Source: Ceratodon purpureus (Eukaryota > Streptophyta > Bryopsida > Pseudoditrichales > Ditrichaceae). Taken from it: a DNA stretch of 64,000 bases. Under the pieces are notes generated by a model. It made no database searches, was not told the DNA's origin, and saw only the letters and a list, made by a program, of their open reading frames with translations. This document shows, piece by piece, positions 24,077 to 59,630 of the stretch. The first letter of the stretch is position 1. Each line of letters begins with the position of its first letter. Made by a program: the position numbers and the translations under genes. Location of the stretch: contig CM026429.1 in NCBI GenBank assembly GCA_014871385.1, forward strand, positions 12,747,783 to 12,811,782. Reading direction: 5' to 3'.

Positions 24077-24098
24077 TCGGGTCCGTCCGGGTGGTGAA

Positions 24099-34070: not shown

Positions 34071-34081
34071 AGCTTATCGAA

Positions 34082-38900: not shown

Positions 38901-39170
38901 GGGGAAAGTTCGTATGTGAGCGGAGAGCGTAGAGCGGAGAGCGGAGAGCACAGAATGGAGAGCACAGAATTGACAATTTGGAAAATTTTCAAAAGCAAAG
39001 TAGACCCTATAACCGTGGAAAATTACTAAATTAAGGCTTAATTTTGACTCTTTTTTTAGGAAAAGAGTATATTACCGTGGAAATCAGGATTATCTCTGGT
39101 AAGAATTTATTACGTTTGTTCTCTAAGATACAAATTAGGGCTGATGTCATGCTGACGTCATGCATATATT
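38901..39170 (+). repeat. Left terminal sequence of the outer MULE-like element
   Basis: Starts GGGGAAAGTTCGTATGTGAG directly after G2 sequence CATTTTTCAG (38891-38900), which in G1 is uninterrupted. It contains iterated GCGGAGAGC, GACCCTATAACCGTGG and TGACGTCATGCAT. It matches 42,759-43,033 base for base over most of about 270 bp, and the outer 60-70 bp match the inverted copy ending at 59,620. The right terminus of this element is beyond 64,000. Confidence 0.85.
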
Positions 39171-39559
39171 TTGGTAGATTTCTCATGGATTTTGGCAAGA
39201 TATAATGATCAGGCGTTAAGTTCTAGATCAAACAATTAATTCTTTCATAGGTTTATGTACACCAAGTCAAGAATAGGTAACATGGTTAGGAAATGTGGGA
39301 TTTTGAATGGTTAAAATATAAGTTACAGCGCAATTTAAATTTTGAGCATTTCTTTTGTAACATTTCATTCTTCATATTATATTTTGAGCATTACAGTTGT
39401 GACATTTCATCCTCTACATAGGAGGAGACGATTTGGAAATGAGAATCGTAACAAGTATAGATTCAGGGTAGTAGAGTAGACGAAGGATTACGCAATGAAC
39501 TCCAATTAAATCAAATCAAATCCAATGAAAACAATGAAAGACCGAAGCCTCCTTCAAAC
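39171..39559. other. AT-rich 3' flank of the outer ParB-methyltransferase gene
   Basis: No gene. A short repeat, ATTTTGAGCATT...TGTGACATTTCAT, occurs twice (about 39,340 and 39,384). Probably 3' UTR and spacer of the gene ending at 39,560. Confidence 0.5.
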
Positions 39560-42500
39560 TCAGAAAATGCTACCATCGCTACTTCCACTCTCAGAACTAG
39601 ATGACTCTGAATCTCCTTCTACCGCCTCGTCATCGACGAATAGAAGGGCCCTGGGATCAAAAGTAGTTGGCCGACTAGGAACATATGTTAGGGCTCCAGA
39701 TTGAAACGCCTGTGCTAAGTCCTCTGCGTAGTCCGGAAGGATGAAAGGCTGAATCGGGCTGGAATGAAGACGCCACGATGGAGTGGACACTGCTCTTGGC
39801 CCACGTGGCGATGTTGCTGAAACTACTCTGCAATAGAGAACCGATTGTGGTTAGATAGAGTACGTAGAGCTCGAAAGAGAAGTAATGATTGGATAATTTG
39901 AAAAAAGAATAGAAGACTTACACCACTTGTCAGGTCTTGCTCTCTTAGGAGGCGCTTCGCCTGCTGCTGCCGGCCTTGGATGTTTAGGAGGACCCATGGC
40001 TGATGGTTTGAGAAGGGCGTTGAATATGGCTTCGTCCTCCTCAAAAGCGAGAATGTGACGACCAACAGCCTAGGCGGCCTTGATGGAGGCCCCTGAAACT
40101 CGAAGAGAAACAAAGAAATGAGAAACTTTGGAAAAAACGAGAGGAAAAATGAAGCAGAGATATGTAAGAAGAGTTACCTGTCCCAGCATTCCAGTCAACA
40201 ACTATGTCGCCGGGCTTGGACAGCTCCTCAATGATGCTCTGCATCATCTCAGGGGATTTCTCCCTTGGGCCTCTCCACGGCACCTCCCCATTCATGAGCT
40301 GAGATTCCGCATCGGTGAAGTTGAAAATGGCATCACTCTTGGTAATGTTGAGGAGCCCATGTATCAGGTCTTCCTTCTTCGTTTGGAAGGAGAAAGTACT
40401 GCCACTACGAACGTAGACGCGAATCCAGAATCGCATAGTCTGCAGTCAAGCAAAACTAGTGAGTAAAATGAAGCGGAAGGGTTATCAGTAAGCGAAGAGA
40501 AGGGCATGTTTAGGAAAAGTACCAAGTTCTCGGGGTTCGTAGGAGAAGTCAGGCCGAGTACATTGACACCCCACCAGTCCTTGAACAGCACGTATCCACC
40601 AGCAGCAGCTTCTTCCTCGATATCCTTAGCCAGCTTCTGATCAGTGTTGTAGATGAGGGAGATGGCACCATCTTTCTGCAGGAATTCATCTGCAAAATGG
40701 AAGATGTCGTACAAATAATCCCTGTAGCGAGAGTTCCAAGGCGGAATACTCGTGGGAGGAACGGAAACGGATGGGACGGGAAGATTCTCAGGGATGTCGG
40801 CAATGATCAAGTCGACTCCCAGATGGTTCTCTTGTTTGCACCGGTCCGGAACTTCGTTTTCGCGGCCTGCTCCAAACTTGAGGAAACAAGAAAAGAGAGT
40901 TAGTAACTACATAGCGAGTAGAGGTGGCAGAATCCATTAAATGTCAAAATATAGGAACAAACCTTGCGAATGAAGTCTTGAGTCTTGATCCAATCCGGGT
41001 CGCCACCTTTGCTCTCCTGTCTCCTATTTCGCCGTAACATGGAATCTACAGATGAGTTGAAGACGGAAACATGTGTGGAAATCGAAGCTCCAGCGGAAGA
41101 AGTTGGTTGAGGATATAGTTTGGCCTTCCTCTGCTCAATGAGACTTCGCGTGATCGCAGAAGCACCAATGGATGAAGGCGCATTCGTTGTGGTCGACGTT
41201 GGCATTGGGACGTCTACAGTTGGAGAAGCGTTGCCCGTCTCCTTCCCTGGTGAGGAAGACTCAGCCCCAGTATCTTGTGAGGTCTGTGACTTCGAACCCA
41301 GTGTTCGCAGTCGCCGAGCTCTCCCTTTCTTCGGTTGAGGTGCAGATGATTCACTTTGATGTTCTTCGTCTTCTTCAGAACCGTCGTTGGAGTCTCCGAC
41401 TACTGGCGCTCGAAGATCAAGTGATGATTTGACATCGGCCTCAGAATCGACTGTAAAACCACGGAGGCAATCTAGATACCAACATCCTGCCTCCAAGTGG
41501 GGAGCTTTGTACCTCTTCAATTGCTGAGCAGAGTAGATACACTCGTCCGTGCCTCTCTGGATCCATAAAGGAAAGTACTTCGGGAGTTGGTGGACAGTGA
41601 CGGCTCCTTTGGGAAGAAGCTCTCTCTTGAAGTACCTAATGTGGGCCAATTTTAAAATACTTAGTATGTGGGAGAGACGAAATGCAGGATTCAAAATGCA
41701 CACATGTTTGAGTAAAGATTCATACCGGTAGATGACTCGCTTGACAACATCGGCCGTTCCAGGGAATTTCGTGAAAATCGACTTCTTATCAAAAGTCTTC
41801 TTCGCCTTGGATCCAAGGAATGCCGGGAATGCTCTGTCCCAAAGCAGAATACGCCAGCTCTCCACGTAATCGCCTGGACGCTGAACATCAGGGGAGGCAT
41901 TCCAATTGATGTCCAGCTCCTCCGCCTTACACAGGTCCTCGAACTCATGGATGACCGCTTCTTCCAACTACAAGACACAGTCAGCAAAATTAGTCTACGA
42001 CAATCAAAGTGATAGAATGACAAAGACATTATCACTTCTGGAAATAAGGGAGCATACCCCTGCCCAGAATGTAGCCCTGTTTAGCCAACGGTCGAGGTCA
42101 GCTTCCTTGAACTCCGGTGGTGGGAACCTGTAAGACTGCCTTGAAGTCGGAGAGGAGTTCCACCACCTCAACCAACGAGCTTTGTACTTGGGTTCCACTG
42201 CCGCTGGCACAATCTTCTGCAGCTTGTCCAATGTCATCTCAGGTTTGTTGAGATCGCTGAAGTGGCGGTTAATCTGCATTTAGAACAGAACTGTTAGCAT
42301 TATGAAATGAAGATATCATAGGAGATAAGAACAAAATAGCTTAAGATGAAGTGATTAAAGATTCACCTCGGCAAGGAAGTCGTCACCATTTTTTGGATTC
42401 GCAATGGCCAAGTACTTGGTGAAGTCCTTCTTCTTGACGGCCTCGATGTAGTTGTTTGACGCTGTCGTCATCGCATCCCACACTCCAGATCCAGATTGAT

Positions 42501-42758
42501 CGTCTATTGGCGTGTTCTCCTTGTAGGCTCTTGCGGCCTGATCCGAGGCGACTGCAATCTCTCTCTGTACATGGAGATACAGTTTATTGAAATCAATGTA
42601 CAAACCACTTGAAATGCATTACTTAAAGTATATGGATCAGACGAATGTACTTGCTGAGTCATGGTATAAATTCTTACTCGGTATAGGAACGCAATGAAAA
42701 CCTTTGTTGTCAAGGTGAACCATCGGTCCTTTGCGTGTTTATTCTGCACACAGATTTC
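39560..42758 (-). pseudogene. ParB-methyltransferase fusion gene of the outer element, 3' part (exons 4b-11)
   Basis: Eight exon segments fit GT-AG rules and phases: 42758-42678, 42564-42367, 42273-42058, 41967-40963, 40876-40523, 40439-40178, 40092-39923 (approx.) and 39816-39560. They align in order with exons 3-9 of the inner gene: WLRWWNSSP...SYRFPPP versus WLQRWNSSP...SHRFPKP; IIADIPENLPVPS versus VIAEYPDGLPVPG; WRGPREKS; VVDWNAGTG then ASIKAA and GRHILAFEED. The last is motif I of an amino-methyltransferase with motif IV placed before it (beta-class order). Two lesions: the first exon is cut by the 16.9-kb inner element at 42,758/42,759, and a TAG lies at 40070-40072 just after motif I. 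One extra intron is present compared with the inner gene (42,366-42,274). Confidence 0.75.
42749..42758 (+). other. Target-site duplication of the inner element (left)
   Basis: CACAGATTTC immediately before the GGGGAAAG terminus; repeated at 59621-59630. Ten bases fits the 8-11 bp duplications made by MULE transposases. Confidence 0.9.
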
Positions 42759-43033
42759 GGGGAAAGTTCGTATGTGAGCGGAGAGCGTAGAGCGGAGAGC
42801 GGAGAGCACAGAATGGAGAGCACAGAATTGACAATTAGCAAAATTGTCAAAAGCAAAGTAGACCCTATAACCGTGGATAATTACTAAATTAAGGCTTTAT
42901 TTTGACACTTTTTTTAGGGAAAGAGTATATTACCGTGGAAATCAGGGCGCAATTAAATGGTAAGAATTTAATAGGGTTGTTCTCTAAAATACAAATTAGG
43001 GCTGATGTCATGATGACGTCATGCATACATTCC
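42759..43033 (+). repeat. Left terminal inverted repeat region, inner element
   Basis: Paired with 59,400-59,620 (inverted) and with 38,901-39,170 (direct). Contains GCGGAGAGC repeats in the outer 60 bp and a TGACGTCA palindrome at 43014-43021, conserved in the outer element's end (39153-39160). Confidence 0.85.
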
Positions 43034-44292
43034 TTTAGATTTGGTCCCTTATTGGATCTAGATACAAGTATTCCAGCATGATGTTTTTAGATTAGAACAT
43101 TTAATATTGAAAAAATTGAGAATATACTACTAAATGAGGTCCACGACTTCAAAGCTTTTGCTATACTGAAAGGAATATTGCAAATCAGAAATTATATTGT
43201 TGAAAACTTCTTCGACTATTTAAATAAGATGTACAATAATGCTGATAATGAGTCCAGACTTATATACATCCTAGAAATGCTTCACGTATTTGATAATTTC
43301 TTCGCCTTTGGCTAAGATCTATTGAAGCTTTCTTAAGTCAATTTTTGTTCCATATAAACGTAGGTGGTTTGAGTTCATATTATTTCAATTAGCAGTTCGT
43401 TGAAGTGAATGTTGCTTATGTTTCATCCATCGAAGGCACGTCTGTTGGTACATTTCTCGTTTACTATCATGAAGTTTTGGGCGATGGAAAATAATTGACT
43501 GATTATATATTGTTCTGTCTTCATTTTGAATATGTTTCGGTATCAAAAATTCCGGTACCTAAAGTTATATATACTTTGGTATATATAACTATATATTTCG
43601 GTAAATTTATATTTTTCGGTATCTAAAATTACTGATTTTCCTTACATTATAACCGCAAGAAAATTATACTTTATTCGACTTTTTCTTATCGATCTAATAT
43701 AATAAACATACCAATTTCAATACAAATTATTTAATCCATTCTGGGCACACATCTACTCTGTTAGTTCATTTCTCATTTACTATTGTAATATTATATGTGA
43801 AGCTTAATTCTATAGTGTTCTTATGTTTCTGGTGAACTTCTTTTCAAATGATTTTATCATTTCAACCAGATGTCCTCTCCCAACCTATGATGATTATATG
43901 TATAAGAGACCTCATTACATGTAATAATACCCGACACTAAGTTTAGGGTGAGATTTAAACTCTGAAAACTCTGAAAACTCTATACAGCCCGTTTCTAATG
44001 AAGGCGCCTCCTTCTTGTACGACAGAGATATAATTCCCTCTCAAAACATGTGATCATAATAAATAAAGTCATGAGTTTCTCATAGGATTTCATCCATCTC
44101 GCCGTTTAGGTCCAGGATTATAGTCGTTGCTAACTCTCACACACTGTTGCTACAGTGATCTAGTTCTATGTCTCTCTTTCAATCCTCTTTGTACGTTCTT
44201 CACTACTGAATTCTAAGGTCGTAGTTCGGTGACTGTTCTTGTAGAAGTCCTATTACTACTGCTGCTACTGTTGCCAGTAAGTTGAGGACCAG
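43034..44292. other. AT-rich sub-terminal region and 5' flank of the RING-like gene
   Basis: No gene. TTTCGGTA(T/A) recurs at about 43,535, 43,596 and 43,614 around TATATA-rich DNA. The 150 bp before the ATG at 44,293 are C/T-rich, like a plant 5' UTR. Confidence 0.5.
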
Positions 44293-45786
44293 ATGACGTC
44301 TAAGAGGAAGAAGGCGAGCAGACAGCATAGACCTAGAGCACAGATTTCTATGCATCAAGTTCTAGACGTTCAGGATCTGAGTGACGATAACACTGTAGGT
44401 CGTAGTGAGGGGGAAGGCGGAAGTGATAGAGTTTTCAGTACCGAGGAGTTTAGTGACCCATTCGATCTTTCTGAATTTGAGGAGGGACTCCGTGAGAGGA
44501 TGCTTGATGCTGCGCCAATGTTGAAAGGGCGTGATGCCGAGTACGGGAGAGTGTTTTTCACTGAGGTCGTTGGTCTCTCCGAGCAAGGCCCGCTTCTAAA
44601 GGACGTGGCTAAGTGTTATGCTTTCATCAGTGATGAAGAAATAGGGATGGTGTGGAAAACAGGAGCTTCGAAGGGGCGATACGAGTTCTCGAGATGCGAG
44701 GATGATGACCAGCTGAAGACGTTTGGACAACAGTATTTCAAGGTCTATGGTAATCGGCCCCACAACAACTACTTTTGTCTACGTTTTCTAAGAGCTTGTT
44801 TCGCTTCTTTTGTGTACGGGAAACAAGTTAACTGGTGCGCTGAGGCTTTGGACCGACACCAAATGCGACTGAAGTCCGCTTGTCGAAATCCGTCGAAGCT
44901 CGGCCCAGTTGCAACCAGATGTCAAGTGGAAGGATTGTGCAGGATAATCAAGGAGCTCTCTCACTCAGGTACAGCTGTAGCACAGCCTGATGTTCGGGGT
45001 TGCGAGTTGAAGGCTGCATTGGAACTCGAGCAGCAAAAGATGAAGGAAGTTGAGTCAATTGAGGATCGCCTACACGATATACGGCAGAAGTATAATGCGA
45101 GTCTCGAAAGGATGAGAGGAGAATCACTTGAGGCAGTAGAAGAGGATTTGAATGACAAGTATTCTGCGAAACTGAAGGAGGCGAGGCAGATTTTACGTAG
45201 CGAGGGTGCTACTGTTTTGTACAAGGAGACCATTGCCGAGGTAGAGGATTTGCACAAAGATCTCGCATTTATGAGGGAAGTCGATGCCCAAATCCGAAAG
45301 GATATTGTTGACCTTGAATTACAATTAGGGAATGAATCTAAATTACTGGCGGATTACAAGGGAGAATTAGAGGTATGTAAAAAAGCAGTGAGGGCCGCGA
45401 GGGAAGAGACGCTCATTCTTAAAACACCAAGAGTGTTTGAGTATCCACAGGTTCAATCCATTCCTCCCATGAATTTTGCAGGTAAAGATGCGTGTTCTTA
45501 CTGTGGGCTCGGATTTATTTGGAGAGCAGCTGTACTGTCTTCTTGCGGTTGTTTTTTGCACCCTCCTTGTGCCGCAGAGATGATCTTGTTGCAGAGTTAC
45601 CGATGTGTGATTTGCAAGGATGTTCTTTTGGCATCGTCTCCCATGCATCTCTCCGAGCCTTGGGTTGCTCAGTTTGGTGGTCAGCTGAATAGCAAACAGG
45701 AGGCGGAGTGTAGTAGTTTTGCAGCAGTTCTTAATGCTGCAAAGGATAGTGCCAAGGGACCAACAATGACTGGATCGAAGACTTGA
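44293..45786 (+). CDS. Coiled-coil protein with C-terminal RING-like zinc finger
   Basis: Intact 497-codon single exon starting MTSKRKKASRQHRPRA (basic, possible nuclear signal). Residues about 60-200 form an unrecognised globular region (GRVFFTEVVGLSEQGPLL, NYFCLRFLRACFASFVYG). Residues about 235-375 are strongly coiled-coil (ALELEQQKMKEVESIEDRL, LHKDLAFMREVDAQIRKDI). Eight putative zinc ligands follow: C401, C404, C418, C420, H423, C426, C438, C441 (C-x2-C-x13-C-x-C-x2-H-x2-C-x11-C-x2-C), a RING-type spacing that suggests ubiquitin or SUMO ligase activity (inference). It lies inside the inner element, convergent with the ParB-methyltransferase gene. No similar protein recognised. Confidence 0.75.
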   Translation: MTSKRKKASRQHRPRAQISMHQVLDVQDLSDDNTVGRSEGEGGSDRVFSTEEFSDPFDLSEFEEGLRERMLDAAPMLKGRDAEYGRVFFTEVVGLSEQGPLLKDVAKCYAFISDEEIGMVWKTGASKGRYEFSRCEDDDQLKTFGQQYFKVYGNRPHNNYFCLRFLRACFASFVYGKQVNWCAEALDRHQMRLKSACRNPSKLGPVATRCQVEGLCRIIKELSHSGTAVAQPDVRGCELKAALELEQQKMKEVESIEDRLHDIRQKYNASLERMRGESLEAVEEDLNDKYSAKLKEARQILRSEGATVLYKETIAEVEDLHKDLAFMREVDAQIRKDIVDLELQLGNESKLLADYKGELEVCKKAVRAAREETLILKTPRVFEYPQVQSIPPMNFAGKDACSYCGLGFIWRAAVLSSCGCFLHPPCAAEMILLQSYRCVICKDVLLASSPMHLSEPWVAQFGGQLNSKQEAECSSFAAVLNAAKDSAKGPTMTGSKT

Positions 45787-46728
45787 GAAGACCACTCCAT
45801 CTCTAAATCGGCATACTTAATGGCAGATAGATGTTGCGAGAACATGAAATATTGGTCCATTCTATCTGAGGGCTTCTATACTTATTTTTATATATAGTGA
45901 CTACTGTAATACGTGAACGAAGAATTTTTTATTAATACTTCATGAAATGTCATAGGTCGGTTAATTAGATACTACAATTTTGGACTGATATATATGTATT
46001 GCAGTAAGTACTGATTTCAAGACTGAATTCTAATGAGACCAATTTTCAATGTTAAAATGGTATTCTATGAGGTGCTAATTAATATGACACTGAATTGTAT
46101 TTGATGGTGTCTGTTATATTAGTGTCGTCTCGAACATAAGCCAATTGTAAAAACATCTGGACCGACACCTACTCACGTAGTCCTTACTGGATTCTAACGA
46201 ATTTGACATTTATTGTAAATGGGAATACTTGCAAACAACAAATGTTGATCCTCATGAATTACTGGCCTTCTGATCTAATTAAAAATGTATATCTGTTCCG
46301 TATATAAAATTTACATGCAATCTCTGAGTTACTGAAATGAAAAAAATGAAGGGATGAATGATAATAAGTAAGATATAGAATTAGAGAGAAATGGTTCCAC
46401 ATGCTTAACCTGTGTCCTTGAATTTAAAACGGTCCGCCAATTTACTGAATTATTCGGAAGTGGAATTATTAGGCGGTGAATTTTGCGCATGTAGTGAAGC
46501 AAAAATTCAAACTCATTAGAAATGGCTTCAATTCAGAACCTAGTGACTAATTTACTAGAATTTATGTAAATGCGCATTTGAGCAGAAACTAATTAAGAAT
46601 ATTAGTATTGGGACTCCGATATGGAATTCTGTGATAATACTATTTAAACGAAAAAATCACTAAAAAGAGAAGGATACAAAATGAATATGCCAAAGAAGAC
46701 ATTCAAAATTTAAACATTGAAAGAAAAT
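45787..46728. other. AT-rich spacer between convergent genes
   Basis: No ORF of note; contains the 3' ends of the RING-like gene and the ParB-methyltransferase gene. Confidence 0.6.
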
Positions 46729-49700
46729 CTAAGGTACAAATTCGACGTCATCCTCAGAGGCACTATGATCGATATAATATAGAACTCTAGGATCGTAATT
46801 TATGTTAGAGCTTGTTGATGCGCTAGAGCTACTTGTGGAAAGTTCTGCAAGAGCACAAGCTTGAAATTCGGCATACTCTGGTAATCGAAAAGTAGGACTT
46901 GTTGGAGACGATGCAACGCGCCACAGATCTCTAAGTATCAAGTGACTGCAAAAACCAGAATTCAATGTTGTTAAAACTCATGTGCAGAGTTGAAAGATAG
47001 GGAGAGGGGTAGGGAGACAGAGGCTGTGTGACTGGGAAAGCCGGGGGAGGGGTGGGGTGGGCTTCGGGAGAGGGATGGGCTGGGCTAGGGGGAAGGGGTG
47101 GGGAGATAGGGGGAGGGGGGAAGGGGTGGGGAGATAATAGGAGGGAAGGAGGGGTGGGGAGATAGAGGGAGGGGGGGGGGAGGAGGGGTTGGGAGATAGA
47201 GGCAGGGGTTCAGGGGTGGGGGGGGGAGGGGTAGGATGGGCTTCGGGGGAGGGTTGGGGTGGGCTTCGGGGGAGGGATGGGGTGGGCTTCGGGGGAGGGA
47301 TGGGGTGCGCTTCGGGGGAGGGATGGGGTGGGCTGGGGGGAAGGGGTGGGGAGATAGAGGGAGGGGAGGAGGGGTGGAGGGGTGGGGAGATAATAGGAGG
47401 GGGGGAGGGGTGGGGAGATAGAGGCAGGGGTTGGGGGGCGGGGAGATAGAGGAGATAATGAGGGAGAGAGAGACAGGGATAGGGGAAGAGAATTGATGAC
47501 ATAGGAAGGAGGTTAGGGGGCAGGGATAAATACATAAACATTCAGAAGAGTGTACAACACAGGAGGGAGTGGGCCATGGGAAGAGGAAGAAATTAAAGAA
47601 GCAATGAAAGATGGATTGGAAAAGTAGAGTGGGGACAAAAACTTGTGAAAATGGTACGAAGGCGGAACTTACTTACATAGATTAACTTTTTCCTTATCAG
47701 GAAGGGGCTCCTCGTCATCATAGTCTTCAAGGTCTTCTGTGTGAACAGGCATAGCTGGTGGTAATAATTTAGGAATGAACATGAGAGGTTCGAGAACCTC
47801 TGTGAATATCGACGTATCACCTTCAAGTGCAACAATGTGCCTGGAAGCAGCCCGAGCAGCCCTAACAGAGGCTCCTGAATCAAGAAGCAGTAATTAATTC
47901 TTATCCTCAAAAACAATATTTTAAAAAAATGAAAATCCAGGTAAAATATTACTGACCAGATCCAGTGCTAAGGTCCACGATAACTCCATCACTTGGACAT
48001 AATGCAGTCTCAAAAAGTTGTAGTAAAGAATCTGATTTTTCTTTAGGACCTCTCCAGAAAGCGCAGTCTTTTTTCTTCTTAAGGGCCGTCTCAGAAGTGA
48101 CGACATTGAAGACAACATCATCCCTCACCAAGTCAACATTCCGAAACTCAGGATTGGCGCCATAGTGAAGCTCTTTTGGCTGTCTCTTGACAGAAGAAGG
48201 AAGGGAGCGGACAAGGGCAATAACTCGCGATTTCAAAGTCTGGAAATAATGAATTTGTTAGTATCAGAAAATAGTTTTCAAGGAATTACAACTTTAAAGA
48301 TATTGAAGAAGAGGGAGTTAGAACTTACAAACTTTGAAGAGTCCAAGGGGTGACATAAGTGGAGGGAATTGATGACTGTCCACTCTTGCTTCTCTATCAG
48401 ATTATTGTTGTTGAAAAAACGCGATAGTTCTTTCTTAATCTGGAGGTTGTCTGGGTAGAAAATAAGTAGTGCCCCGTCGTCATGAAGAAATCCTCCAGAA
48501 AAACCAACGACAAGTTCGAAAAAATTATCAACCTTCTCATTCCAAGAAGGAATAGAGGTAGGGGGCTGTGACACTCCTGGTACTGGAAGACCGTCTGGGT
48601 ACTCTGCTATAACTAGGTCACATGAAGGCTTATCCGAAAACTGTCCCTCGAAAGAGAACTCCTTACCAGCTCTGACCTGAAATTAGTGAATCAGTCATTA
48701 CTTCCCAAATACAAACAAGGATAATACAGTAAGAATTGAAAAGAATTGGTTTAAAATTATACCTTTCTCAAAAAAGAGGTCATTGCATCATAGGAGGGTG
48801 GGAACTTCTTGTTCTCTGATTTGAACTTCACCATACCCGGGAACGTGTCATTCAGAACAAGAACCGTGCTAGATGTACTCGAAGAAGAAACTGGCTGCAG
48901 CAATTTCATGGACTTCAAAGAAGGGGGTGTTAGCTCATGCGGTGATGCTGCCCCTATCGGAGATATATGAGGGCGCTTGGCGGATTGAGTCGGTTGCTCC
49001 AGAGGAGCACTGACTGCGTCTACCTCGATTCCCTCCTCACCATTCTGAACACTCTGTCCCTCAGCCGGCACGGACTTGGGCTCCTTGCCAGCCGCGGTTG
49101 TAGCCGGAATATCTTCGTCTTGATCATCCTCTAACTCATCCGCCTTCCTCTTAAGAACTCGACCCTTTCCAGCCCCCTTGCCTTTCCTATTCCTGCCCTT
49201 TCGAGTTGGGGGTGACTTATTCGTGACTTCGGGGGCTGCTTTAGCTGGAAGCAACGACAGAGCAGGCTGAATCGAATCTCGGAGAGGTACATCAAAGGCC
49301 GGGGGCTTTTTAGGTGGACAATCCATATACCAACCACATCTATCGTAATGAACGGGGTCCCAAGCTTTAAGCATGGCAGGGGTATACATACACTTAGTGC
49401 TACTGAGATCTAAATAATTCGCGAAAAATGCAGGAACTTTAGAGACTGCCTTGCGAGGATAGAGAATGTACTTGAAGTACCTAAAAAGAACCCTCTTAAC
49501 AGCTTGAGGGAAACAGGGCATCTGGTCTGAAGTCTTGTTCTTGTGCACCTGGTCGGGACCTTTGAACTCCCGGAAAAAGGCAACGTCCCACAAGGAGCAT
49601 CGCATAGACTCGACATAATCAAAAACACGCTCAATAGGATCTTCACCCTCAGGCTCATAATTGATACTAACCCCCATATCATCAATCACATGAGAGAAGA

Positions 49701-52700
49701 GGTCTTCCACCTCGACTGCCAACTGCAACGCCACCATCATAAAGCTTAGAATTGTAAACTGCCTAAAACGAAGCATGAATTGAACATAAAAAATAATTAA
49801 AAAAAACATTAGCCACTCATATGGTACTGTCGTTGCCGGCAGTACCCTGGCCGAGCTCATCGACGCATGCTACCCTCGCTGATAAGCAGGGCCTGGGTAC
49901 AGCGGGCAACCGCAGTGCCCTTCGACTGAACAGTCTCTGGGTACTGCCGTTGCCGGCAGTACCCTGGCCGAGCTCATCGACGCATGCCACCCTCGCTGAT
50001 AAGCAGGGCCTGGGTACAGCGGGCAACCGCTAAGCCCTTCGACTGAACAGTCTCTGGGTACTGCCGTTGCCGGCAGTACCCTGGTCGAGCTCATCGACGC
50101 ATGCTACCCTCGCTGATAAGCAGGGCCTGGGTACAGCGGGCAACCGCTAAGCCCTTCGACTGAACAGTCTCTGGGTACTGCCGTTGCCGGCAGTACCCTG
50201 GTCGAGCTCATGCAAAACTAGTTTTAATGAAATACAAAAAAACATAAATATAAAATTGAGTGACTGTGAAAGTATAGGAAACCTCACCTGCGCCCACCAA
50301 GTAGCCTTGTGCAGCCAAGGTGGAAAAATAACATCCGAGAACTTCGGCTTCGGAAATCTATGTGACTCACGGATTGAGGGAGAGGAGTTCCAGCGCTGGA
50401 GCCACTTCACTTTCATCTTCGGCGGCATCGCTGATGTCGCTAACATCCACAGCTTCTCCTGAGTCATCTCAGGGGAATCGTCATACTTCTCGTAGTGTAA
50501 TTTTATCTGCTCAAGGAAGGCTGTAGTGTTGACTGGGTCCGCTATGGGAAGAAGCTTCTTTAATTCACTGAGAAACGTGTCTGCAGTTCTCTTCACGGCC
50601 TTACTGATCCACTCGTCCACAGATTTGGAGGTCCACTGATGCGGCTCTGGATACCTCTCATAAAAGCGACGTTTTGCAGCTGATGCAGCCTCACCTAATT
50701 CTTGCTGCAACCAGATGTGTACAAGTGATTTACAATCAAATAAAGAAGCTCACATGCAAGTTTTATCAAAAAATCAGAATTTGATCATACCTGATGAAGC
50801 ACAGAATTCAGCCCTTCCAATGTCAATGTATACCAGGTACGTTTAGCTCCGGCCTGCTTCGCTTTTGCACTGTCCAGTGTTGCCTTGCTCACAATTCCCT
50901 CGAAATAGGAAAAGGGTTGAGGTGCAATGCTCTGAATGCGATAAAGTTTATGAACCATGTTGGTCTCGACATGAGATTTCTGGTTCCTCCTGTACATTAC
51001 ACAAAGGAGTTAAGGGATGGGCTGGACAAGTATGAGAAATCGAAATGCATGTGATTCGACTATAAGTCTTACCAGTTTACTTCGTGTAGAGCCTCTAGAA
51101 CTAATGCAACCTCGCCCTTCGGGTCAAGGATAATACTCTCCACTCTGAAATGCCATGAGAGATCTCCTGAATGAAATTGGTCAATGACAGGGAGCCATGC
51201 CTGAAGTCTATGATTCCCGTCCCAAACCATAAACATCTTATTCGAAAACAATTTAAGATCATCATCTGCAAGTAGTTCTTGTTCAAATTCCTCGTTTCGA
51301 GCTTGCCACTCCACACTCCATTTATCAGAAATGGCCTTTGTAACATCCCTGGTTTTACCATGATTGTCCTCAAGAGCCACATAGAAATAACCATTTCCCT
51401 CGAGGTAACCGCAGCTAGTGAAATGAGATGACAATGTAAGAACATCATTCTTCAACGACGGCCTCACTACAGGTAATGCCATCATTCTACAAAGAGGTAT
51501 GTGAAGTTTTCCCTTCTTAGTAGGCTTCCATCTCAGTAAATCTAGCCGCGATGCTGTATTCGTTTGGGCCTTCCCCACCAGCTCATTGAGCTTAAGATTC
51601 ACCTCCAATTCCGTCAACGGGGCCGCATCAGCCTCTGTGTAAACACACACTCACAATTATTTAAATTGAGTTCAAATGTAACAAATCCAGACTGTAAGAC
51701 GTGGACTTTAAATTTCCTAAGCAATTTAGTGAACAGACATGGAATGTCAACAATATCAAAACGAAGTAAACCATTGAATGGTGCTGCCGGCAACGGCCCA
51801 TGCTTGAGATTCACTTCCAATATCGCCATGCCCACAAAGGCACTGTCGGGGTACTGCCGGCAACGGCAGTACCTCCACAGTGTCAATGGAGAAAACTCCA
51901 ATGACACTCTCGGGGTACTGCGGTTGCCGGCAGTACCCCAAGGGTGCACCCTCTCCCACGATCGCCATGCCCACAAATGAACCCTTGGGGTACTGCCGGC
52001 AACGGCAGTACCTCCAGAGTGTCTATGGAGAAAACTCCAACGACACTCTCGGGGTACTGCGGTTGCCGACAGTACCCCAAGGGTGCACCCTCTCCCACGA
52101 TCGCCATGCCCACAAATGAACCCTTGGGGTACTGCCGGCAACGGCAGTACCTCCAGAGTGTCTATGGAGAAAACTCCAACGACACTCTCGGGGTACTGCG
52201 GTTGCCGGCAGTACCCCAAGGGTGCACCCTCTCCCCCGATCGCCATGCCCACAAATGCACCCTTGGGGTACTGCCGGCAACGGCAGTACCTCCAGAGTGT
52301 CTATGGAGAAAACTCCAACGACACTCTCGGGGTACTGCGGTTGCCGGCAGTACCCCAAGGGTGCACCCTCTCCCCCGATCGCCATGCCCACAAATGCACC
52401 CTTGGGGTACTGCCGGCAACGGCAGTACCTCCAAAGTGTCCATGGAGTTTTCTCCAAGGACACTCTCGGGGTACTGCGGTTGCCGGCAGTACCCAGAGGG
52501 TGCACCCTCTCCCCCGATCGCCATGCCGAGGGAGCACCCTTGGGGTACTGTCGGCAACCGCAGTACCCCGAGACTGACCTCGGAGAAAACTCCAGGGACG
52601 GTCTAGAGGTACTGCCGTTGCCGGCAGTACCCCAACGGCGCACCCCTTTCCCCGATTGCCACTCCCACTTAGGGGTCGGGGGGTACTGCCGGCAACGGCA

Positions 52701-53006
52701 GTACCTCCAGACTATCCATGGAGAAATCTCTGTGGATAGTCTTGGGGTACCGCCGTTGCCGGCAGTACCCCGCGATGGTGTCGCAGCAAATATTCAAACA
52801 AAGGGACATGAATTCATACCCTCTTCATCGTCGTCTTGATCCTCGGCTTCTTCTTGTGGTGGAGTCTCCTCTGGCGTATGGGAATCTCCATCGTCTTTGG
52901 AAACCGCCTCCTTCACTTCCGGTGAGGCCATATCTTCGTCCTCTCCATGCTTCATTTCGGCGTCCTCGCAATCCTCCTCTTCCTGGCGCTGTCCAGACTG
53001 AGGCAT
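46729..53006 (-). CDS. ParB-like domain / amino-methyltransferase-like fusion protein, nine exons, intact
   Basis: Exons: 53006-52820, 51634-51073, 50989-50791, 50704-50288, 49722-48763, 48676-48329, 48239-47957, 47874-47673, 46945-46729. All junctions are GT-AG, all phases agree, total 3,375 nt = 1,124 aa. Residues 1-62 are acidic. About 85-250 look like a ParB/sulfiredoxin-fold domain: IPLCRMM...VVRP and FMVWDGNHRLQAW (G-N-H-R at 202-205). Residues 251-775 are unrecognised, with a basic linker (RKGRNRKGKGAGKGR). Residues 776-1055 resemble a beta-class DNA amino-methyltransferase: AEYPDG at the motif IV position (799-804), WRGPKEKSDSLLQLF, then motif I VIVDLSTGSGAS (977-988) and HIVALEGD. 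The ParB + methylase pairing is known in phage and bacterial proteins. Motif IV lacks D/N-P-P-Y, so catalysis is doubtful. Possible extra first exon at 53664-53386. Confidence 0.75.
46978..47470 (+). repeat. G-rich purine tract in the last intron of the ParB-methyltransferase gene
   Basis: About 490 bp of GGGGAGGGGTGGGGAGATAG-like units, including GGGCTTCGGGGGAGGGATGG repeated four to five times (47,230-47,330). Many G3-G4 runs within short spacing: potential G-quadruplexes on the plus strand, C-rich in the transcript. The Pro-rich minus frame here (47541-46978) is a by-product. Confidence 0.9.
49823..50213. repeat. 117-bp tandem array with hairpins, in intron 4
   Basis: Units start at 49823, 49940 and 50057, with a partial one at 50174. 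Each starts with a hairpin of 10-bp arms GGTACTGCCG / CGGCAGTACC around TTGC. The array lies in the intron between exons ending 50288 and starting 49722. Minor differences (GCAGTG versus GCTAAG) separate the units. Confidence 0.95.
51779..52775. repeat. 139-bp tandem array with hairpins, in intron 1
   Basis: Period 139 bp is clear between 51,988, 52,127, 52,266 and 52,405, with drifted units on both sides. Each unit carries the same GGTACTGCCG...CGGCAGTACC hairpin twice in opposite orientation, separated by a second palindrome (AGTGTCTATGGAG ... CTCCAACGACACT) and by GGGTGCACCCTCTCCC. About 14 hairpins in all. Fills the 1.19-kb intron between exons ending 52820 and starting 51634. Confidence 0.95.
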
Positions 53007-53385
53007 CTATTGAAGCAATGCAATCTCTAGGGTTAGTGTAGAGAAGGGAAAAACCGAAAGAGAAAGGCAAGAACTGATCCTAAGGAAGTATGGAGCCAAG
53101 GCCCGACTGAATGAAAGCAAACTATAAAAAGTACAGACAGAGAGGGAGGGTGCCCTCTACGATCGGCCATTATGGGATAGCTAAAAGAATGAGTGATTCC
53201 ATAAGATAATCGCTACACATGGTGAATGTTGAATTAGGATAAGAAATAAACGACACAGTAAATTTGTAGAAATTGCAAATATTATATTCACTTGATGATG
53301 ATCTCCAATTGTCTGTCATACTCCTAACACTTCGTTAGAAAATTAATCAAATCTAATCATTTCCAGTTGAAGGAAATGAATTTAC

Positions 53386-53664
53386 CTTGTCGTCGCTGCT
53401 GTCACTTGATTCAGACAGCACCTGTTGGCAGATTCTCTTCTCTGTCTTCCCTGTCTTCTGCCGTCTACCGTAGCGTAAGGTTTGATTGTCACAGTCCTCG
53501 GGTTCCTCTTCTAACGGTTCAGTAAACAATACCTTTGTAATCCCCTCTTTCTCAAATCGCTCACTCTGTTTAAGCTTCTTTGCCATCCTACTCCTTGCTA
53601 ATTGCTTTGCCGAGCTATAATGCGTCCCCTGCTTTCTCCTCCTCTTTCTAGTTGACTCCTGCAT
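53386..53664 (-). CDS. Basic/acidic exon, possible true first exon of the ParB-methyltransferase gene
   Basis: ATG at 53664 opens MQESTRKRRRKQG (nuclear-signal-like KRRRK), followed by ARSRMAKKLKQ and an acidic tail SESSDSSDDK. It ends at GACAAG|GTAAAT after 93 codons, phase 0. An acceptor CAATAG lies immediately before the ATG at 53006, also phase 0, so this exon can be joined to the nine-exon gene, giving about 1,217 aa. Otherwise it ends at a stop at 53,353 as a 103-aa protein. Cannot be decided from sequence alone. Confidence 0.5.
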
Positions 53665-53736
53665 GTCACTCACAAGCCATCTAACAACCACCACATAACA
53701 AAAGACAAACCAAAGACGATTGGTGCTCAAACACAC

Positions 53737-54263
53737 GTATCAGTGCTGATACTCAAAAAGAGAGAGCACACCTCAGTCCAGCAATCTATAATGTAAACTG
53801 AGGAACCCTAACACAGAATAAAATATAGAATTTGAATAAATCATATGCATGCATTAGTCCTATATATATAACTAATGCATAAATATGATTAATTCAAAGT
53901 CTATATGTTTATTACTTTAAATGTAGAAGGAAAAGACGGCTCATTCTAATCTAATCACACCCCATATAAAATAGAATCTGCTCCACCATTCAAATACTTA
54001 AAGCAATATTCTAAAAATCTTACTACATATTTATGGGCCTGCAAAAAGCAACATTATAATTAGTTAGCGCCGTCTCTCTTCAATCATACATTCGTTACGT
54101 AGCAGAATGAGTCATTACCTAGTCGTCCACATGGACATTCCATTTTGAATAAAATGATCAACAGCGATGCATCATTCCTCTCACTTTGCTCTCGCGATAC
54201 AGCTTTGCTAGTACACTCCCTCTTCTCCGTTATTCCTCTAGTATCTCTGAGTTGCCTGCGAAT
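53737..54263. promoter_or_regulatory. Intergenic region between divergent ParB-methyltransferase and transposase genes
   Basis: The two genes point away from each other across this AT-rich 0.5-kb stretch (TATATATATAACTA near 53,863), so promoters of both should lie here. C/T-rich sequence precedes the transposase ATG (54,264). No specific site assigned. Confidence 0.4.
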
Positions 54264-57200
54264 ATGGGGATGGTCTGTCTGTACGCCCAAGGCATGGGCA
54301 TTCCTCTTAGGTTTCGCGTAGATGACGATGGTCTAGCTACAGTTTCCTCTATTCGCCTGAGTCTCAGATTCCATTTCCGTGAGGATTCCATCAGTATAGA
54401 GGAGGAGATTTTTGATGACGTTACTGCTGAGGTTACCCACACGCTCGGGCAACCTTCAGTGAGAGATGAGAACAATCTGTTACAATGGAGACTCTTCCCT
54501 GGATCCTATAGAGTCTATGGTCTTACTGATTCTCTTATGGCTGCATCCACTGAGATCCTCACCCCCCGTCGCTCTTCTACTTGCACAATTCAGACTCCCT
54601 TACCTCGTGATGTCAAAGTCAAAGTCGAGCCTGGTACCGAGACTTCAGATGTAGAGAAACCTCCTCCGACCGTCATATCTCTCTCTTCTGATGACGAAGT
54701 CAGTCCTGTCAAGTTGGTGCCTAAGGTCCACGCAGATGCTCCTCCTTCCATTGTGTCTCCTCCATTGTCCCAGGTCACAGTTAGCATTGTTCCGCTCCTT
54801 AAAGAGATTGCTAAGACGCGTGGGTCCAAAAACATTTTGAAGAAGATAGACTATTCCACTATTAGTCACGAGAGAGTAGAGTACTTGCCTGCGAAGTTTG
54901 ATGGTCCGGTTCTTTTTGAGTTGCCCCCAGCTGCTGCAGGTTCCTCTAAGCTCGCCGCCAAGTCTATGCAGGGAATGGACAAACGATACGACGGACACTT
55001 GTGGACCAAGACCATCACAACAAACATCAAAAACGACTTCGGACTCTCTTTTCGAAGTTCCACCTGCGTCGGATGGCTCCGGTGCAACAACCAGGAGTGT
55101 GACTTTCTGAAGCGTGTTCCCAAGATCTTCGAGGTCAACGAGACTGAGTTCGAAGGCTGTACCCTGCAAGCTTTTGTCATGGACCAGCCTCCTCCATCTG
55201 ACTCCACGCTAGTGTGCAAGGTATGTAAAGAACCTCCATCATGTGTAGCTACATGCGAGGCTAAGATTTATTACGTTGTGGGCAAACCGAATCAGACTAG
55301 AGCGTGTATTCACATAGGAACACATGATCATCCAGTGAAAGTAGGAGACTACAGAGACTCTAAAGCAGAGATTAGTAGCTTAATAGAAGAGCAGGTAGAG
55401 ATGAACAACAAAGCAACGAAGAGCGCCGTTGTCTTGGAGGCGAGCAAACTCCTCATCGGGAGCTACCTTCTACAGCCCGAGGATGCACCACCAAGGAAAC
55501 AGACGATGGAGGAGCTGGTTCCTGTTCTGGATCGTTGCAAAGACATGGCGTCGCCCAACATCCGCAACAAAGTCGCCACCTTCAAAAAATTCGTAAGGTA
55601 CGGAATCATGGACGGTATCACCAAGCTCCGTGGTAACAGTCTCTGGGCGTATGTCCAGGAGAATAGGTTTCCTGGTCAGGGATCGATGCGTGACAAAGTC
55701 TTTGTCTTCAAGATGTCGGAGGTCGGGCCGGGCAGTGGTGTCGACTTGGTCAGCCGTATGCAAGCTGGTGGCGATTTGGAGAACGCATGGATCATGTTCG
55801 ACCATGTCAAACGCGTCAAGGATTGGTCGACGATGGCGTGCCATGTGTACGACGCCACCTACTGCCGCGTCATGACAATCGCCACTTGCGACATGCAGTC
55901 CGAGGACACGGACGCCTAGCTCGTCTTCTGGAAAAACCTGAACCTGGTCATGGAGATCAATGGCGTTGCAGCGCCGAACTTCAAGGGGTTCATGGCGGAT
56001 AACGCACAGGCCAATTGGAATGCAGTGCGGATCCTTTACGGCAATGGCAATAAAGAGGACCCAATGGAGGACCGGGAGAGGTTGTGCTTGTTCCACTGGA
56101 CTCAGAATATGGTGGCGTATACGCAGAAGCACTTCCCCGAAGAACTCTGGGAACAGCACAAGAAGATGTGCACGCAGTACAAGAATGCGACCAGCATGGC
56201 AGAGGCGGAAACTCTGTACCACGCGTTGCGAGCATGGTGGGCATCCACCGGGGTCGTCGGCGAGAGCGGGCTCATCAAACTCGATCAGTGGCTGTCATTC
56301 TGGCACCACCGCTTCCGCCAGTGGGGGGGATTCATGACCGAGGTATTCTCTATGCACTCTGTTTTGATGTTTTTCATACTGGTTTCCTAGCCCTAACCTA
56401 CAAAAGTCTAATCCGTGAATCTAACGGCACCTACTGTCAAACGTGCAGAAATTCACAAAAGAAGAACTCACAGAGATGCCTACCTGTAACCTCGCCGAAA
56501 CAGTTCACAACAAGTGGCTCCAAGCTTCAGGAAACAACGGGAACGACCTCTACGTTGCTACCGTGGACGATTTCGTTCGGGCATTTCTACAGGTTGTCAA
56601 CTACTACCAGTTCCTCAAAGGTGACGTCGGCGGAACAGGACCATCTAAGAAGGAACTCAGGCTTCGGATGGCTGAACGCAACGCGAAGAAATGGGGAAAT
56701 CCTACACTGCTCGACAAGCCCATGCTCGATATGCCAGGCGCGGATGAGTTCTGCACCCGTCAGCCTATCATGCCTGGAGCGGAAGTCTTCGGTTCACAGA
56801 AGCGAAAAGCCGACGTCCTTATCGGAGCTGACGAGGAGTCTCATCGCCCGGACAAGACAAACTTCTCACGCCCAAGAGGCCCAAGACGTGCCGTCAGGGC
56901 TCGCCCTATGCAGATGCCCGTCATTGTGGAAGACGACTCCGAACACGACACCGAGGTACAATGTACGCAACCTCCTGCTCAGGAAGTTGATTCCCCTTTA
57001 CCTTCACCTGTGAACAAGGGCGGCATTCGCCATGTCAACGCGGTTGAAGAAACCAAGGTCGACGTGAAGGAGTGGCACATCTCGAGACTTCACAAACTTT
57101 CAGCGAAGTGCTGCTGGGCCCAAAGAGCTGAAACGAAGAAGAAGTGCACTGAGAGAATCGTCAGGGGGCCCCATTGCACAGCTGCACCGACCTACACTGG

Positions 57201-57942
57201 GCTGTGGACTAACTATTGGAGGAACACAGTCGAGAAGACAGAGTCTTTCTTCTGCTCCGACGATATTGAGCGTTGCGTGAAAGGCTCTAAGCGCAAGTGG
57301 GTAGCACACTACTCAAAGGACCAGGAATTCCCCTCCATTCCTGAGGTCTGGCCAGTGAAACTAGGTACTAACCTAAAACTTACTGAGATTCTTGCCCTCG
57401 AAGCAGCGGGCTTTCAACTTCCGCCGAAGAAACCGGTCTCCCCAAGACGCCTCTTCTCCTCTGCCCCGCCTCCTGCAAATCTCAGCTCAGTGCCTGTCCC
57501 TGCAGACGCTGACCGCTACCCAGGGAAGAGAGACGGCAAGATGGTGAAGCGCACTGCCACTCGTCCCAATCAAGCGCAGCGACTCTCCATGGGCTCCTCC
57601 GAATCTCTTAAAGCGCGCCTCCGTTCCGTCACCATGATACCTGAGCCGGGCCACGGTTGCATCATTGGGCTGGATTCGGGCGTCGCTCCACACATCACAC
57701 GGTACCAGATTACCATCAGTTCTTACCCTGGTTGCACTTGCCCAGCATTCAAGAAGACAATGACTACGTTCCGTGGGAAGACTCAGTTCACGTATTGTAA
57801 GCACCTATACTACATATTCTTGAAGGTCTGCAACCGTGATCCCAAAGCGGAGCTTTTCATCCATGCGCCTACCTTCAGCTTCAACGAGGTCAAGCTGCTC
57901 TTAGAGAGTGGAATCTTGCGTCACCCCTTGGCGAAGAAGTAG
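54264..57942 (+). pseudogene. MULE transposase of the inner element, two exons, one in-frame TAG
   Basis: Start ATG 54264 (MGMVCLYAQGMGIPLRF). Exon 1 ends GAG at 56342; intron 56343-56448 (106 bp, GT-AG, phase 0); exon 2 56449-57942. About 1,190 codons. Order: N-terminal strand-rich region; SUMO-interacting-like VISLSSDDE; zinc-binding region LRCNNQECDF ... CKVCKEPPSC ... CIHIGTHDHPV (C/H pattern of MULE WRKY-GCM1-like domains); DDE core including GFMADNAQANWNAVR (second catalytic Asp, codon 579) and CLFHW (608-612, the C-x2-H MULE motif); SWIM finger C1122-T-C1124 ... C1143-K-H1145. A TAG at 55917-55919 (codon 552) interrupts an otherwise open frame that resumes at once with LVFWKNLN; CAG to TAG is the simplest origin. 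Could also be read through. Differs from the 19-22 kb transposase. Confidence 0.85.
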
Positions 57943-58196
57943 GTAGCCCTCCTACTTTAGAACTTCCATTTCCACAATGGCCATTTGTCACGTAGTGAAT
58001 GATTTTAGTAATATACCATATACTAAGTCAGCTATTGAGAAGCTGTATTGACTTTTTCATTATATTAAAGGCTTTGGCGTTCACATTGATTGCATTCTAT
58101 TTCAATACATTGTATCTTGAAGAAGTGCACTATATACCTCGTATCCCCTGACATGTACCCTTTATTAAGGCAAACATATACTTGTTATTAGATGTC
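57943..58196. other. Short spacer between convergent genes
   Basis: AT-rich, contains the 3' ends of the transposase and the small SIM-bearing gene. No terminator signal assigned. Confidence 0.5.
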
Positions 58197-58649
58197 CTAA
58201 TCTTCGAACCTAACACGTTTAGGGTTGCCCACTACACTATCAGCAGGACTGCCAGCCGCTGACTGTACTACAGGACAAACTACATTCGCATTCACTTTCG
58301 TTCCCACACTTGGCAAATGTCCTTGGTATGATCGTTTCAGCAATGGCCCACCTCCCCGCCTCCGATTAACTGATTCCCTGGAATAGGTTCCCCTTGGGAT
58401 CTTTCCAACCTTCGAGTATGCATGTGGTTGCAAAGGCACATCTGCGTCCTTCTCTAGCACTATGATTTCATCCGAATTTTCTGAACGTGGAGGGTCAGCT
58501 CTTACATCCGGTTGTACCGCAACATCCGATGTCGACGGACGCCCTTGGCTGTTGGCCATCACCTCTTCTTCGTCCTCCACCTCAACATATGGTTGAAATG
58601 GACAAACATCGTCAGCGAGTGAAACAACAATATCTCTGACGTCTTCCAT
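58197..58649 (-). CDS. Small acidic/basic protein with SUMO-interacting-like motif
   Basis: 150-codon frame from ATG 58649 (MEDVRDIVVSLADDV) to TAG. Acidic first half with VEVEDEEEV and SDEIIVLEKD (hydrophobic I-I-V-L flanked by acids: SIM-like), basic second half (RRRGGGPLLKRSYQ), ending NPKRVRFED. No known domain. It could be one exon of a larger gene, but start and stop are both clean. Located between the transposase and the right terminus of the inner element. Confidence 0.5.
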   Translation of the reverse strand: MEDVRDIVVSLADDVCPFQPYVEVEDEEEVMANSQGRPSTSDVAVQPDVRADPPRSENSDEIIVLEKDADVPLQPHAYSKVGKIPRGTYSRESVNRRRGGGPLLKRSYQGHLPSVGTKVNANVVCPVVQSAAGSPADSVVGNPKRVRFED

Positions 58650-59399
58650 AGCTGCTGTCCCGCACTACGGAAAAGAGCTTCACATAACACCAACACAAAA
58701 GAGGCAGAGACATTCCCTACTCTTATCTTAAATATCCCTGAAGAAGATGCTTGGCGCCCTTGAAAATCGGCTATTCATTCATTTAGAAGTTGTCATCCTC
58801 CTAAACCGAATGGAAAAAGATGAAGGTTTAGCAGAGGTCATTTAGCATTTGAATTTTTCTTTTAAAATTAAAGAATGAACAAAAAAAAAAAAAAAAATTT
58901 AAAAAAAAAAACATTTATATAAATTGAAATTAAAAAGATTAAAGAAAAGAATAGCAATATTTAAAATGAAGGTTGAAAATAATATGAAGGAGATCAACAA
59001 ATTGAATGTGAAAATAAAATGATTGTGAAAATAAAATGAAGGAGAGAATCAAATGCAAGGAGGCTTTTGACCCCTCTAACAAGATAGATAGAATAAAGAA
59101 AATTTTATAAAAAATACAAGACAAATATCAAAAAAAATAAAAATAAAATAATAAAAAGGAGAAAGGCATGTAGACTATGGTGGATGAATTCTAGCAATGT
59201 TAAGAAAATGTTATGAAATTAAATGTTACTTGATCCCTGTTCACAGGTTCAATACCAAAACATTTTAAGTAGTAATTTGCATATAAATTTAAGGAGATAA
59301 GGGGAATTAATGTATGCTTGACACTAGTTAGAAGGAGCTGGAGCATAGTAATTGGTGCAAGTTAAAAAATTAATCACCAAGAAAAGAGAATATGAACTA
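58650..59399. other. A/T-rich sub-terminal region of the inner element
   Basis: Long A runs (58,880-58,912), TTAAAAT words, no ORF that looks coding. Confidence 0.6.
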
Positions 59400-59620
59400 C
59401 AAATTCAATGAAAATACTGTAATTAGTCCACGGTTATAGGGTCAATTAAATTACTAAAATTAGTAACTTCCCAAAAATATACTAAGAATATTCGGATCTT
59501 CTAATTTTATAATTTATTTTTAGTAAAAAAAGTGCTATTTTAAGGTTCTGTCTTCCATTCTGTGCTCTCCGCTCTCCAAATCTGCGCTCACCGCTCTCCG
59601 CTCACGTACAAGCTTCCCTC
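59400..59620 (-). repeat. Right terminal inverted repeat region, inner element
   Basis: Inverted relative to 42,759-43,033: CCACGGTTATAGGGTC at 59,431 and the GCTCTCCGCTC iterations at 59,560-59,610. The two homologous blocks are separated by an unrelated AT-rich insertion. Confidence 0.85.
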
Positions 59621-59630
59621 CACAGATTTC
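59621..59630 (+). other. Target-site duplication of the inner element (right)
   Basis: CACAGATTTC, identical to 42749-42758. Confidence 0.9.

Follow-up and report, generated by a model that had tools for sequence, protein, structure and literature searches.

A gene of a Ceratodon purpureus DNA transposon family that joins a predicted ParB-like fold to an amino-methyltransferase-like domain and holds palindrome arrays in its introns

The genome sequence of Ceratodon purpureus contains a high-copy family of DNA transposons with an accessory gene that, on sequence comparison, is conserved, and in which a predicted ParB/Srx-fold domain is joined to an amino-methyltransferase-like domain. The copy described here, element A, lies in a stretch of 64,000 nucleotides, the window (GenBank assembly GCA_014871385.1, contig CM026429.1, here C9:12747783-12811782), and was compared with the 362.5 Mb of the genome in 151 contigs. 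Two features of the gene are new here. Motif IV of the methyltransferase-like domain reads [DE][YFI]P[DE] in place of DPPY, and introns 2 and 5 hold arrays of dyad-symmetric sites (dyads) with subfamily-specific arms. By analogy with VANC, the best-described plant counterpart, the protein may be built from ParB and methylase parts to work in self-recognition, probably against silencing, a reading to which we give an even chance. A literature search, with preprints and most subscription papers outside its scope, found no paper combining ParB, methyltransferase and transposon, nor any on this element.

The gene and the parts of it that matter here are the following.

46729..53664, complement strand: ParB-like / amino-methyltransferase-like gene, 10 exons, 1229 amino acids, from manual splicing and spliced alignment
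53664-53386, 53006-52820, 51634-51073, 50989-50791 and 50704-50288, complement strand: exons 1-5
49758-48763, 48676-48329, 48239-47957, 47874-47673 and 46945-46729, complement strand: exons 6-10
51073..51634, complement strand: exon 3, predicted ParB/Srx-fold domain (AlphaFold2 predicted local distance difference test, pLDDT, 86.8), with the GNHR motif at 51218-51207
47673..48676, complement strand: exons 7-9, amino-methyltransferase-like domain of the beta class, in which motif IV precedes motif I
48593..48604, complement strand: motif IV position, EYPD (residues 905-908) instead of DPPY, from the family profile aligned to D-P-P-Y of DpnA
51855..52764, forward strand: eight dyads YGCCG-N4-CGGCR in intron 2, within tandem repeat units mostly 139 bp long
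49945..50192, forward strand: three dyads YGCCG-N4-CGGCR in intron 5, in a 117-bp tandem repeat

Spliced by hand, all introns of the gene are GT-AG, and the phases are consistent, as the original prediction had them; its coordinates were also right, and its nine exons and 1,124 amino acids become 10 exons and 1229 amino acids, or nine exons and 1136 amino acids if translation starts at the exon 2 ATG (53006). The WDGNHRLQAW stretch and the order of motif IV before motif I are present as it described them. A spliced-alignment script run on the raw DNA recovered the same protein from exon 3 onward, with that part of the protein as its query and with stops penalised and possibly spliced round. 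Could separate genes have been wrongly joined? This was rejected, since the same exon chain recurs in divergent genomic copies with ParB exons 60–77% identical, in which the whole gene can be aligned and introns are largely at the same places. A Pfam scan of the whole 1229-residue protein gave no match.

A dead fossil was likewise rejected, by the ratio of nonsynonymous to synonymous substitution (dN/dS). Eleven pairs were chosen from 13 copies, and of these three were informative, four very close and four saturated over the whole protein. The informative pairs gave 0.07 (L043/L045), 0.06 (L045/L046) and 0.10 (L047/L048) for the whole protein and 0.12, 0.08 and 0.14, respectively, for the methyltransferase domain. 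With few changes to count, the very close pairs (A/C13, A/C4, C13/C4 and L050/L052) gave 0.23–0.44, and single domains in them, with very few changes, reached 0.94 (methyltransferase, L050/L052) and 1.43 (C-terminus, C13/C4). By the ratios of the informative pairs, substitution between related copies is conservative and the methyltransferase domain is under purifying selection. Half of the 16 whole-gene stretches in the tally, from which L051 is absent, are full-length without a stop (A, C4, L045-L048, L052 and L053). In a genome search with exon 3, 120 of the 150 scored rows were stop-free, these being the best 150 of 1854 candidates and a list that favours good copies. The family alignment omits L044, in which the methyltransferase part is missing, and L049, L054, L055, C13 and C4; alignment A1 (9 rows) is without L043, L050 and L051, and A2 (7 rows) without L045, L046, L048, L050 and L051. 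All three divergent copies with fetched upstream sequence have a transposase-like gene lying divergently upstream, and two more, L043 and L044, have part of it at their edge. This bears out the earlier view of the gene as a standard transposon component.

The introns with dyads are unusual. Introns 2 and 5 are long and GC-rich and carry palindrome-bearing tandem repeats, in contrast to the short AT-rich introns of the gene. YGCCG-N4-CGGCR occurs 11 times in the window, every time in these two introns, against 0.11 expected, and none of 100 shuffles reached 11; chance palindromes were rejected on this basis. The site is also present, with 2–24 occurrences per stretch, in 37 of 38 further stretches, equal to 29 of 30 distinct other copies. 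Overall the dyad is 14–22 bp long. Its arms differ by subfamily (GTACTGCCG-GCAA-CGGCAGTAC; GTACTGCCGTTAACGGCAGTAC; GCACCGCCGGTACCGGCGGTGC; GCACTGCCGTCAACGGCAGTGC and related forms), and its four central bases vary between subfamilies. When intron 5 of element A is aligned with that of L043, L045 and L046, all site bases match, as against 2–16% of the other bases. For L045 and L046 against L050 and L052, 13–45% of the site bases are matched and 0–3% of the others, and the remaining distant pairs gave no match at that alignment sensitivity.

Across the genome the dyads keep company with the gene. The A-type site has 114 occurrences, and all 15 of its listed clusters are within 5 kb of a ParB exon. 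There are 751 occurrences of CTGCCGTTAACGGCAG and none of the reversed control; four of its eight listed clusters have a listed ParB exon no more than 5 kb away, while among the four clusters fetched three contain exons of the ParB-methyltransferase gene and one only the end of the transposase-like gene. The dyad core of the third subfamily occurs 52 times, with nine of 14 listed clusters beside a listed ParB exon and the other five not fetched. Thirteen of these 14 clusters are on C6, a sex-chromosome-like contig of 110.5 Mb that makes up 30% of the genome.

The predicted structure of exon 3 has its best structural matches in ParB, Noc, KorB, SerK and Srx, in agreement with the ParB/Srx-like N-terminal domain originally proposed. 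Structure prediction drew on alignments with 69 proteins out of a list of 120 (A3) and 56 out of 84 (A4). In the GNHR motif, GN is invariant and H and R are each conserved in at least 90% of 70 aligned sequences. We take this Gly-Asn-His-Arg to sit where the ParB/Srx fold has its nucleotide loop. The family thus shares with the CTPase clamps of the ParB/parS systems a predicted fold, the GNHR motif and arrays of palindromic sites. It differs from them in that the Pfam ParBc profile is unmatched, in an identity of 8–18% to the structurally matched ParB, Noc and KorB chains, and in its eukaryotic transposon carrier, and nucleotide binding, a helix-turn-helix and clamp formation are here hypothetical. 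ParB itself is described as nucleating on parS and spreading with cytidine triphosphate (PMC7053999, available text).

An element-borne ParB-fold protein, together with dyads that are kept while the spacers around them are lost, suggests a self-recognition pair. The protein would be a dimeric, element-specific DNA-binding factor that nucleates on the intron dyads in the way that ParB nucleates on palindromic parS, and then spreads across the element as a nucleotide-gated clamp. Nucleation followed by spreading would give it a reach from one site to the whole element, on which host silencing would be counteracted so that the transposase could be expressed. The dyad arrays lend support to the earlier suggestion that the element recognises or unsilences its own DNA, which we continue to put forward as a proposal.

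Such a role would equal that of VANC in the VANDAL Mutator-like elements of Arabidopsis, with different protein parts. In the accounts available, introns of VANC21 and VANB21 contain the VANC motifs as tandem repeats, and the motifs vary from one family to another (PMC5735166, PMC10398659). Both cases thus have an accessory gene in a plant DNA transposon, intronic tandem arrays of element-specific motifs in non-coding parts of the element, and subfamily-specific variants. The VANC21 motif, YAGTATTAY, is short and in that text is not described as palindromic, unlike the 14–22-bp dyad of the element A family, and VANDAL terminal inverted repeats are degenerate whereas those of element A are clear. 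Binding and anti-silencing by VANC have been shown by experiment; here they are inferred.

Exons 7-9 are predicted to adopt the Rossmann fold typical of amino-methyltransferases, motif IV preceding motif I. Judged by predicted fold and family, the original prediction of a beta-class domain is supported. The domain of element B, a more divergent relative in the window, scores 35.8 bits against PF01555 (N6_N4_Mtase; cut-off 26.7). Alignment positions Asp238, Gly242, Gly244, Glu261 and Asp263, which we take to be residues of the S-adenosylmethionine (SAM) site, are invariant in nine copies. Predicted fold, motif order and these residues are as in the beta-class N6/N4 methyltransferases of PF01555, MboIIA, CcrM, DpnA and PvuII. 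Unlike those enzymes, the protein has its distinctive motif IV, a ParB fusion with about 500 residues between the two domains, and a spliced gene.

The catalytic motif (D/N/S)PP(Y/F/W) is absent from the element family. All 45 copies in which motif IV was found (16/16 genomic, 29/29 metagenomic) have [DE][YFI]P[DE], in the variants E-[YF]-P-D, D-[YF]-P-D, E-I-P-D and D-I-P-E, and the alignment of the family profile to DpnA that places it scores just 0.2 bits over this short stretch. In two of 18 genomic stretches, one a truncated copy and the other the ParB half of element B, and in six of 35 metagenomic ones the motif was not found. Those of the stretches L022-L038 that lack a clear strand were left out of the computations on motif IV, dyad mismatches and CpG. 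Bacterial relatives have D-[IV]-P-Y in 49 of 49, a uniformity that is partly selection because the set was gathered by shared exact words including LIIADIP. We had supposed that every member lost the aromatic of motif IV, and this was dropped once L068 (C8:9595560-9596520) showed D-Q-P-Y, in a copy that lacks the intron at motif I and has one in-frame stop. L069/L071 (C1:5957940-5958790) has D-V-P-E in a long open frame of 567 amino acids without the usual introns. In these sequences branches A, B and L071 lack the aromatic and one sister branch, L068, keeps it, from which an active ancestor is the simple inference. Metagenome fragments (P0001-P0034) carry the same methyltransferase domain, and several of them read through an intron in the same position; on this evidence the family does not seem to be confined to this genome.

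Because of its motif IV we file the domain as amino-methyltransferase-like and not as a proven enzyme. In this branch it would most likely be a SAM-sensing or DNA-holding pseudo-enzyme, since the catalytic aromatic is replaced by Asp or Glu while the SAM-site residues are kept. METTL14 is comparable: its fold is that of an amino-methyltransferase, and its motif IV contains an acidic residue but lacks an aromatic one (PMC5023411, as far as its available text goes). In contrast to it, the element family has invariant SAM-motif residues in the nine copies aligned.

Or, is the domain an active writer? It would then deposit N4-methylcytosine (4mC) or N6-methyladenine (6mA) on element DNA at or from the palindromes, by which the host or the element's own transposase would distinguish it. 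We regard this as unlikely, if the foremost of the alternatives. Bacterial enzymes of the beta class often read palindromes, and the invariant SAM-site residues, the purifying selection on the domain and the D-Q-P-Y of the sister branch would all fit an enzyme. In addition, 4mC is deposited in bdelloids by an enzyme that came from bacteria, and the text describing it cites a 4mC enzyme of Marchantia that is likewise bacterial in origin (PMC8885841, available text). Yet Asp or Glu replaces the base-stacking aromatic of DPPY/SPPY/DPPW in every one of the 45 sequences with the motif, the same source reports that changing SPPY to APPA in rotifer N4CMT abolished activity, and variable central bases in the dyad also speak against a writer. 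The earlier idea that the protein marks the element's own DNA loses weight because the aromatic of catalytic motif IV is gone from this branch.

Several results weigh against self-recognition by a ParB-type protein with a pseudo-enzyme domain. The ParB assignment rests on the predicted fold, and ParBc and ParB-family profiles were unmatched when seven members were compared with Pfam and PHROGs and the family profile with PDB. Six other A-type copies score 17.9–26.2 bits against PF01555, under the cut-off, and the window's own domain, alone among nine, has no match to it at E ≤10. The methyltransferase model has a mean pLDDT of 67.7, and the bacterial enzymes in its input alignment may have pushed the prediction towards this fold. 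With D-Q-P-Y in L068, enzyme activity may persist in relatives. L056 is without a dyad in the 5.4 kb read, in which intron 2 is not included. Introns 2 and 5 are not the sole location of sites either: L060 has some in intron 6, and L057 and L059 have a few that fall within transposase exons or between them. The transposase could be the dyad-binding protein. The ratio of observed to expected CpG is 0.69 in intron 2, 0.84 in intron 5 and 0.83 in the whole window, so with intron CpG no higher than that of the window, base composition does not point to any protection from methylation. Finally, intron 2 folds as RNA at -800 kcal/mol and intron 5 of L045 with a z-score of -18.7, and mismatched dyad positions lean slightly to G:T over A:C (118 versus 87).

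Because both introns tested fold very stably, RNA hairpins are a serious alternative. The dyads would be hairpin repeats in introns that serve as a source of small RNAs or in the control of splicing, or else a foldback minisatellite spreading by chance. The slight excess of G:T would suit such hairpins, the tandem periods of about 95–139 bp are typical of minisatellites, and intron 9, also long and GC-rich, has a G-rich minisatellite (46978-47541) without YGCCG-N4-CGGCR. On the other side, a core of the size of a site is retained where intron spacers are lost, it recurs with differing periods and arms across subfamilies, and 255 of 373 mismatched pairs are not G:T. We judge the RNA or neutral explanation improbable. 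Much the same holds for a factor in transposition or copy control, in which protein and dyads would organise the transposition complex, target immunity or pairing of elements by a ParB/parS-like tether, with no part in silencing. The predicted ParB fold together with palindromic arrays, the transposase neighbour in three of three fetched upstream regions and the few sites in or between transposase-like exons of L057 and L059 are in keeping with it. However, the sites of element A are internal and away from the termini, and the terminal repeats bear another motif; this explanation, too, has little probability.

Self-recognition can be put in a more specific form, which we offer as a tentative possibility, less probable than the general one. 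The transposon may have captured a ParB/parS-like nucleate-and-spread system, in which a ParB-fold clamp with a SAM-binding pseudo-methylase loads on subfamily-specific intron palindromes and coats the element against silencing, protein and palindromes co-diverging into many non-cross-reacting subfamilies. If the self-recognition reading is true, land plants would have a second, differently built form of transposon-encoded anti-silencing, a ParB-type DNA clamp would operate in a eukaryotic mobile element, and a bacterial amino-methyltransferase would have become a regulator that retains its SAM site without the catalytic aromatic. The candidate protein, candidate palindromes and natural subfamilies with differing palindromes are defined, and make specificity and spreading directly testable.

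There are other cases of such domains in eukaryotes. Rotifer N4CMT and the Marchantia 4mC methyltransferase are also bacterial-type amino-methyltransferases taken up by a eukaryote, one of them a bryophyte. N4CMT has a catalytic SPPY, and both enzymes, the Marchantia one compared here by description, are presented in the available text as recruited epigenetic enzymes and not as transposon genes (PMC8885841). Retrotransposons of Symbiodinium and Klebsormidium carry cytosine methyltransferases, so that here too a DNA-methyltransferase-type gene is part of a transposon, in an alga; the account also mentions DIRS elements bearing Dam-like adenine enzymes. These differ in being C5 or Dam-like enzymes of retrotransposons, and ParB fusion and dyad arrays are not described for them in the available text (PMC5890265).

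Element A and its surroundings have the following features.

42759..59620, no strand assigned: element A, DNA transposon with three genes, 16.86 kb, from alignment to copies C13 and C4
42749..42758, forward strand: left target-site duplication CACAGATTTC, 10 bp, a direct repeat flanking element A
59621..59630, forward strand: right target-site duplication CACAGATTTC
42759..42786, forward strand: left terminal inverted repeat GGGGAAAGTTCGTATGTGAGCGGAGAGC
59593..59620, complement strand: right terminal inverted repeat GAGGGAAGCTTGTACGTGAGCGGAGAGC, an imperfect match to the left one
44293..45786, forward strand: accessory gene 1, an open reading frame (ORF) of 497 amino acids, coiled-coil-like with a C-terminal RING-like Cys/His cluster (by eye)
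54264..57942, forward strand: transposase-like gene, with Asp positions that look DDE-like by eye and, at the C-terminus, a SWIM-like Cys/His cluster
59837..60405, complement strand: ParB-domain exon of element B, a divergent relative interrupted by element A
38901..42758, complement strand: element B, with a similar terminus at 38901 and the remaining exons of its gene, with motif IV DIPE and one stop in the spliced model

Copies C13 and C4 can be aligned from 42759 to about 59606, where they end, in long blocks of 95–97% identity and a final block of about 450 bases at 89–90%; the outermost bases of the right end vary among copies. The C13 copy is flanked by its own 9-bp target-site duplication, and an exact duplication of at least 6 bp was looked for at the ends of the C4 copy and not found. 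The gene order is the RING-like ORF, the ParB-methyltransferase gene on the opposite strand and the divergent transposase-like gene. Accessory gene 1 has a relative in L043 (47% identical) and nothing above threshold in a Pfam scan. In divergent copies the transposase-like gene is 67–69% identical in its main first part, 73–80% in the middle and 68–89% in the end parts found. The original description as intact fits the ParB-methyltransferase gene and fails for this neighbour, which has an in-frame stop at 55917-55919 where the C13 copy reads on. Its label of Mutator-like element (MULE) is likely right: target-site duplications of 9–10 bp in two of three copies and terminal inverted repeats agree with it, as does a SWIM match solely in relative P0206 (E 0.11, below threshold), but a Pfam scan for transposase models gave no match.

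From the arrangement of exons, element A is inserted within the homologous gene of the more divergent element B, with the ParB exon to the right and the rest of that gene to the left. B-like elements also seem to have inserted into relatives of A, judging by L044, of which positions 1-2795 are 97–98% identical to the left part of element B. Element B is without YGCCG-N4-CGGCR; in its apparent intron 2 (window 61245-63495) a unit of about 243 bp is repeated nine times in tandem, and every unit contains the palindrome CGTGTCTGCTCCGAAAGCAGACACG. Elsewhere in the window, 22696-34409 is a Ty3/gypsy-like long terminal repeat element with identical 300-bp stretches 11.4 kb apart, and its ORF at 26282-29281 encodes reverse transcriptase, RNaseH and integrase.

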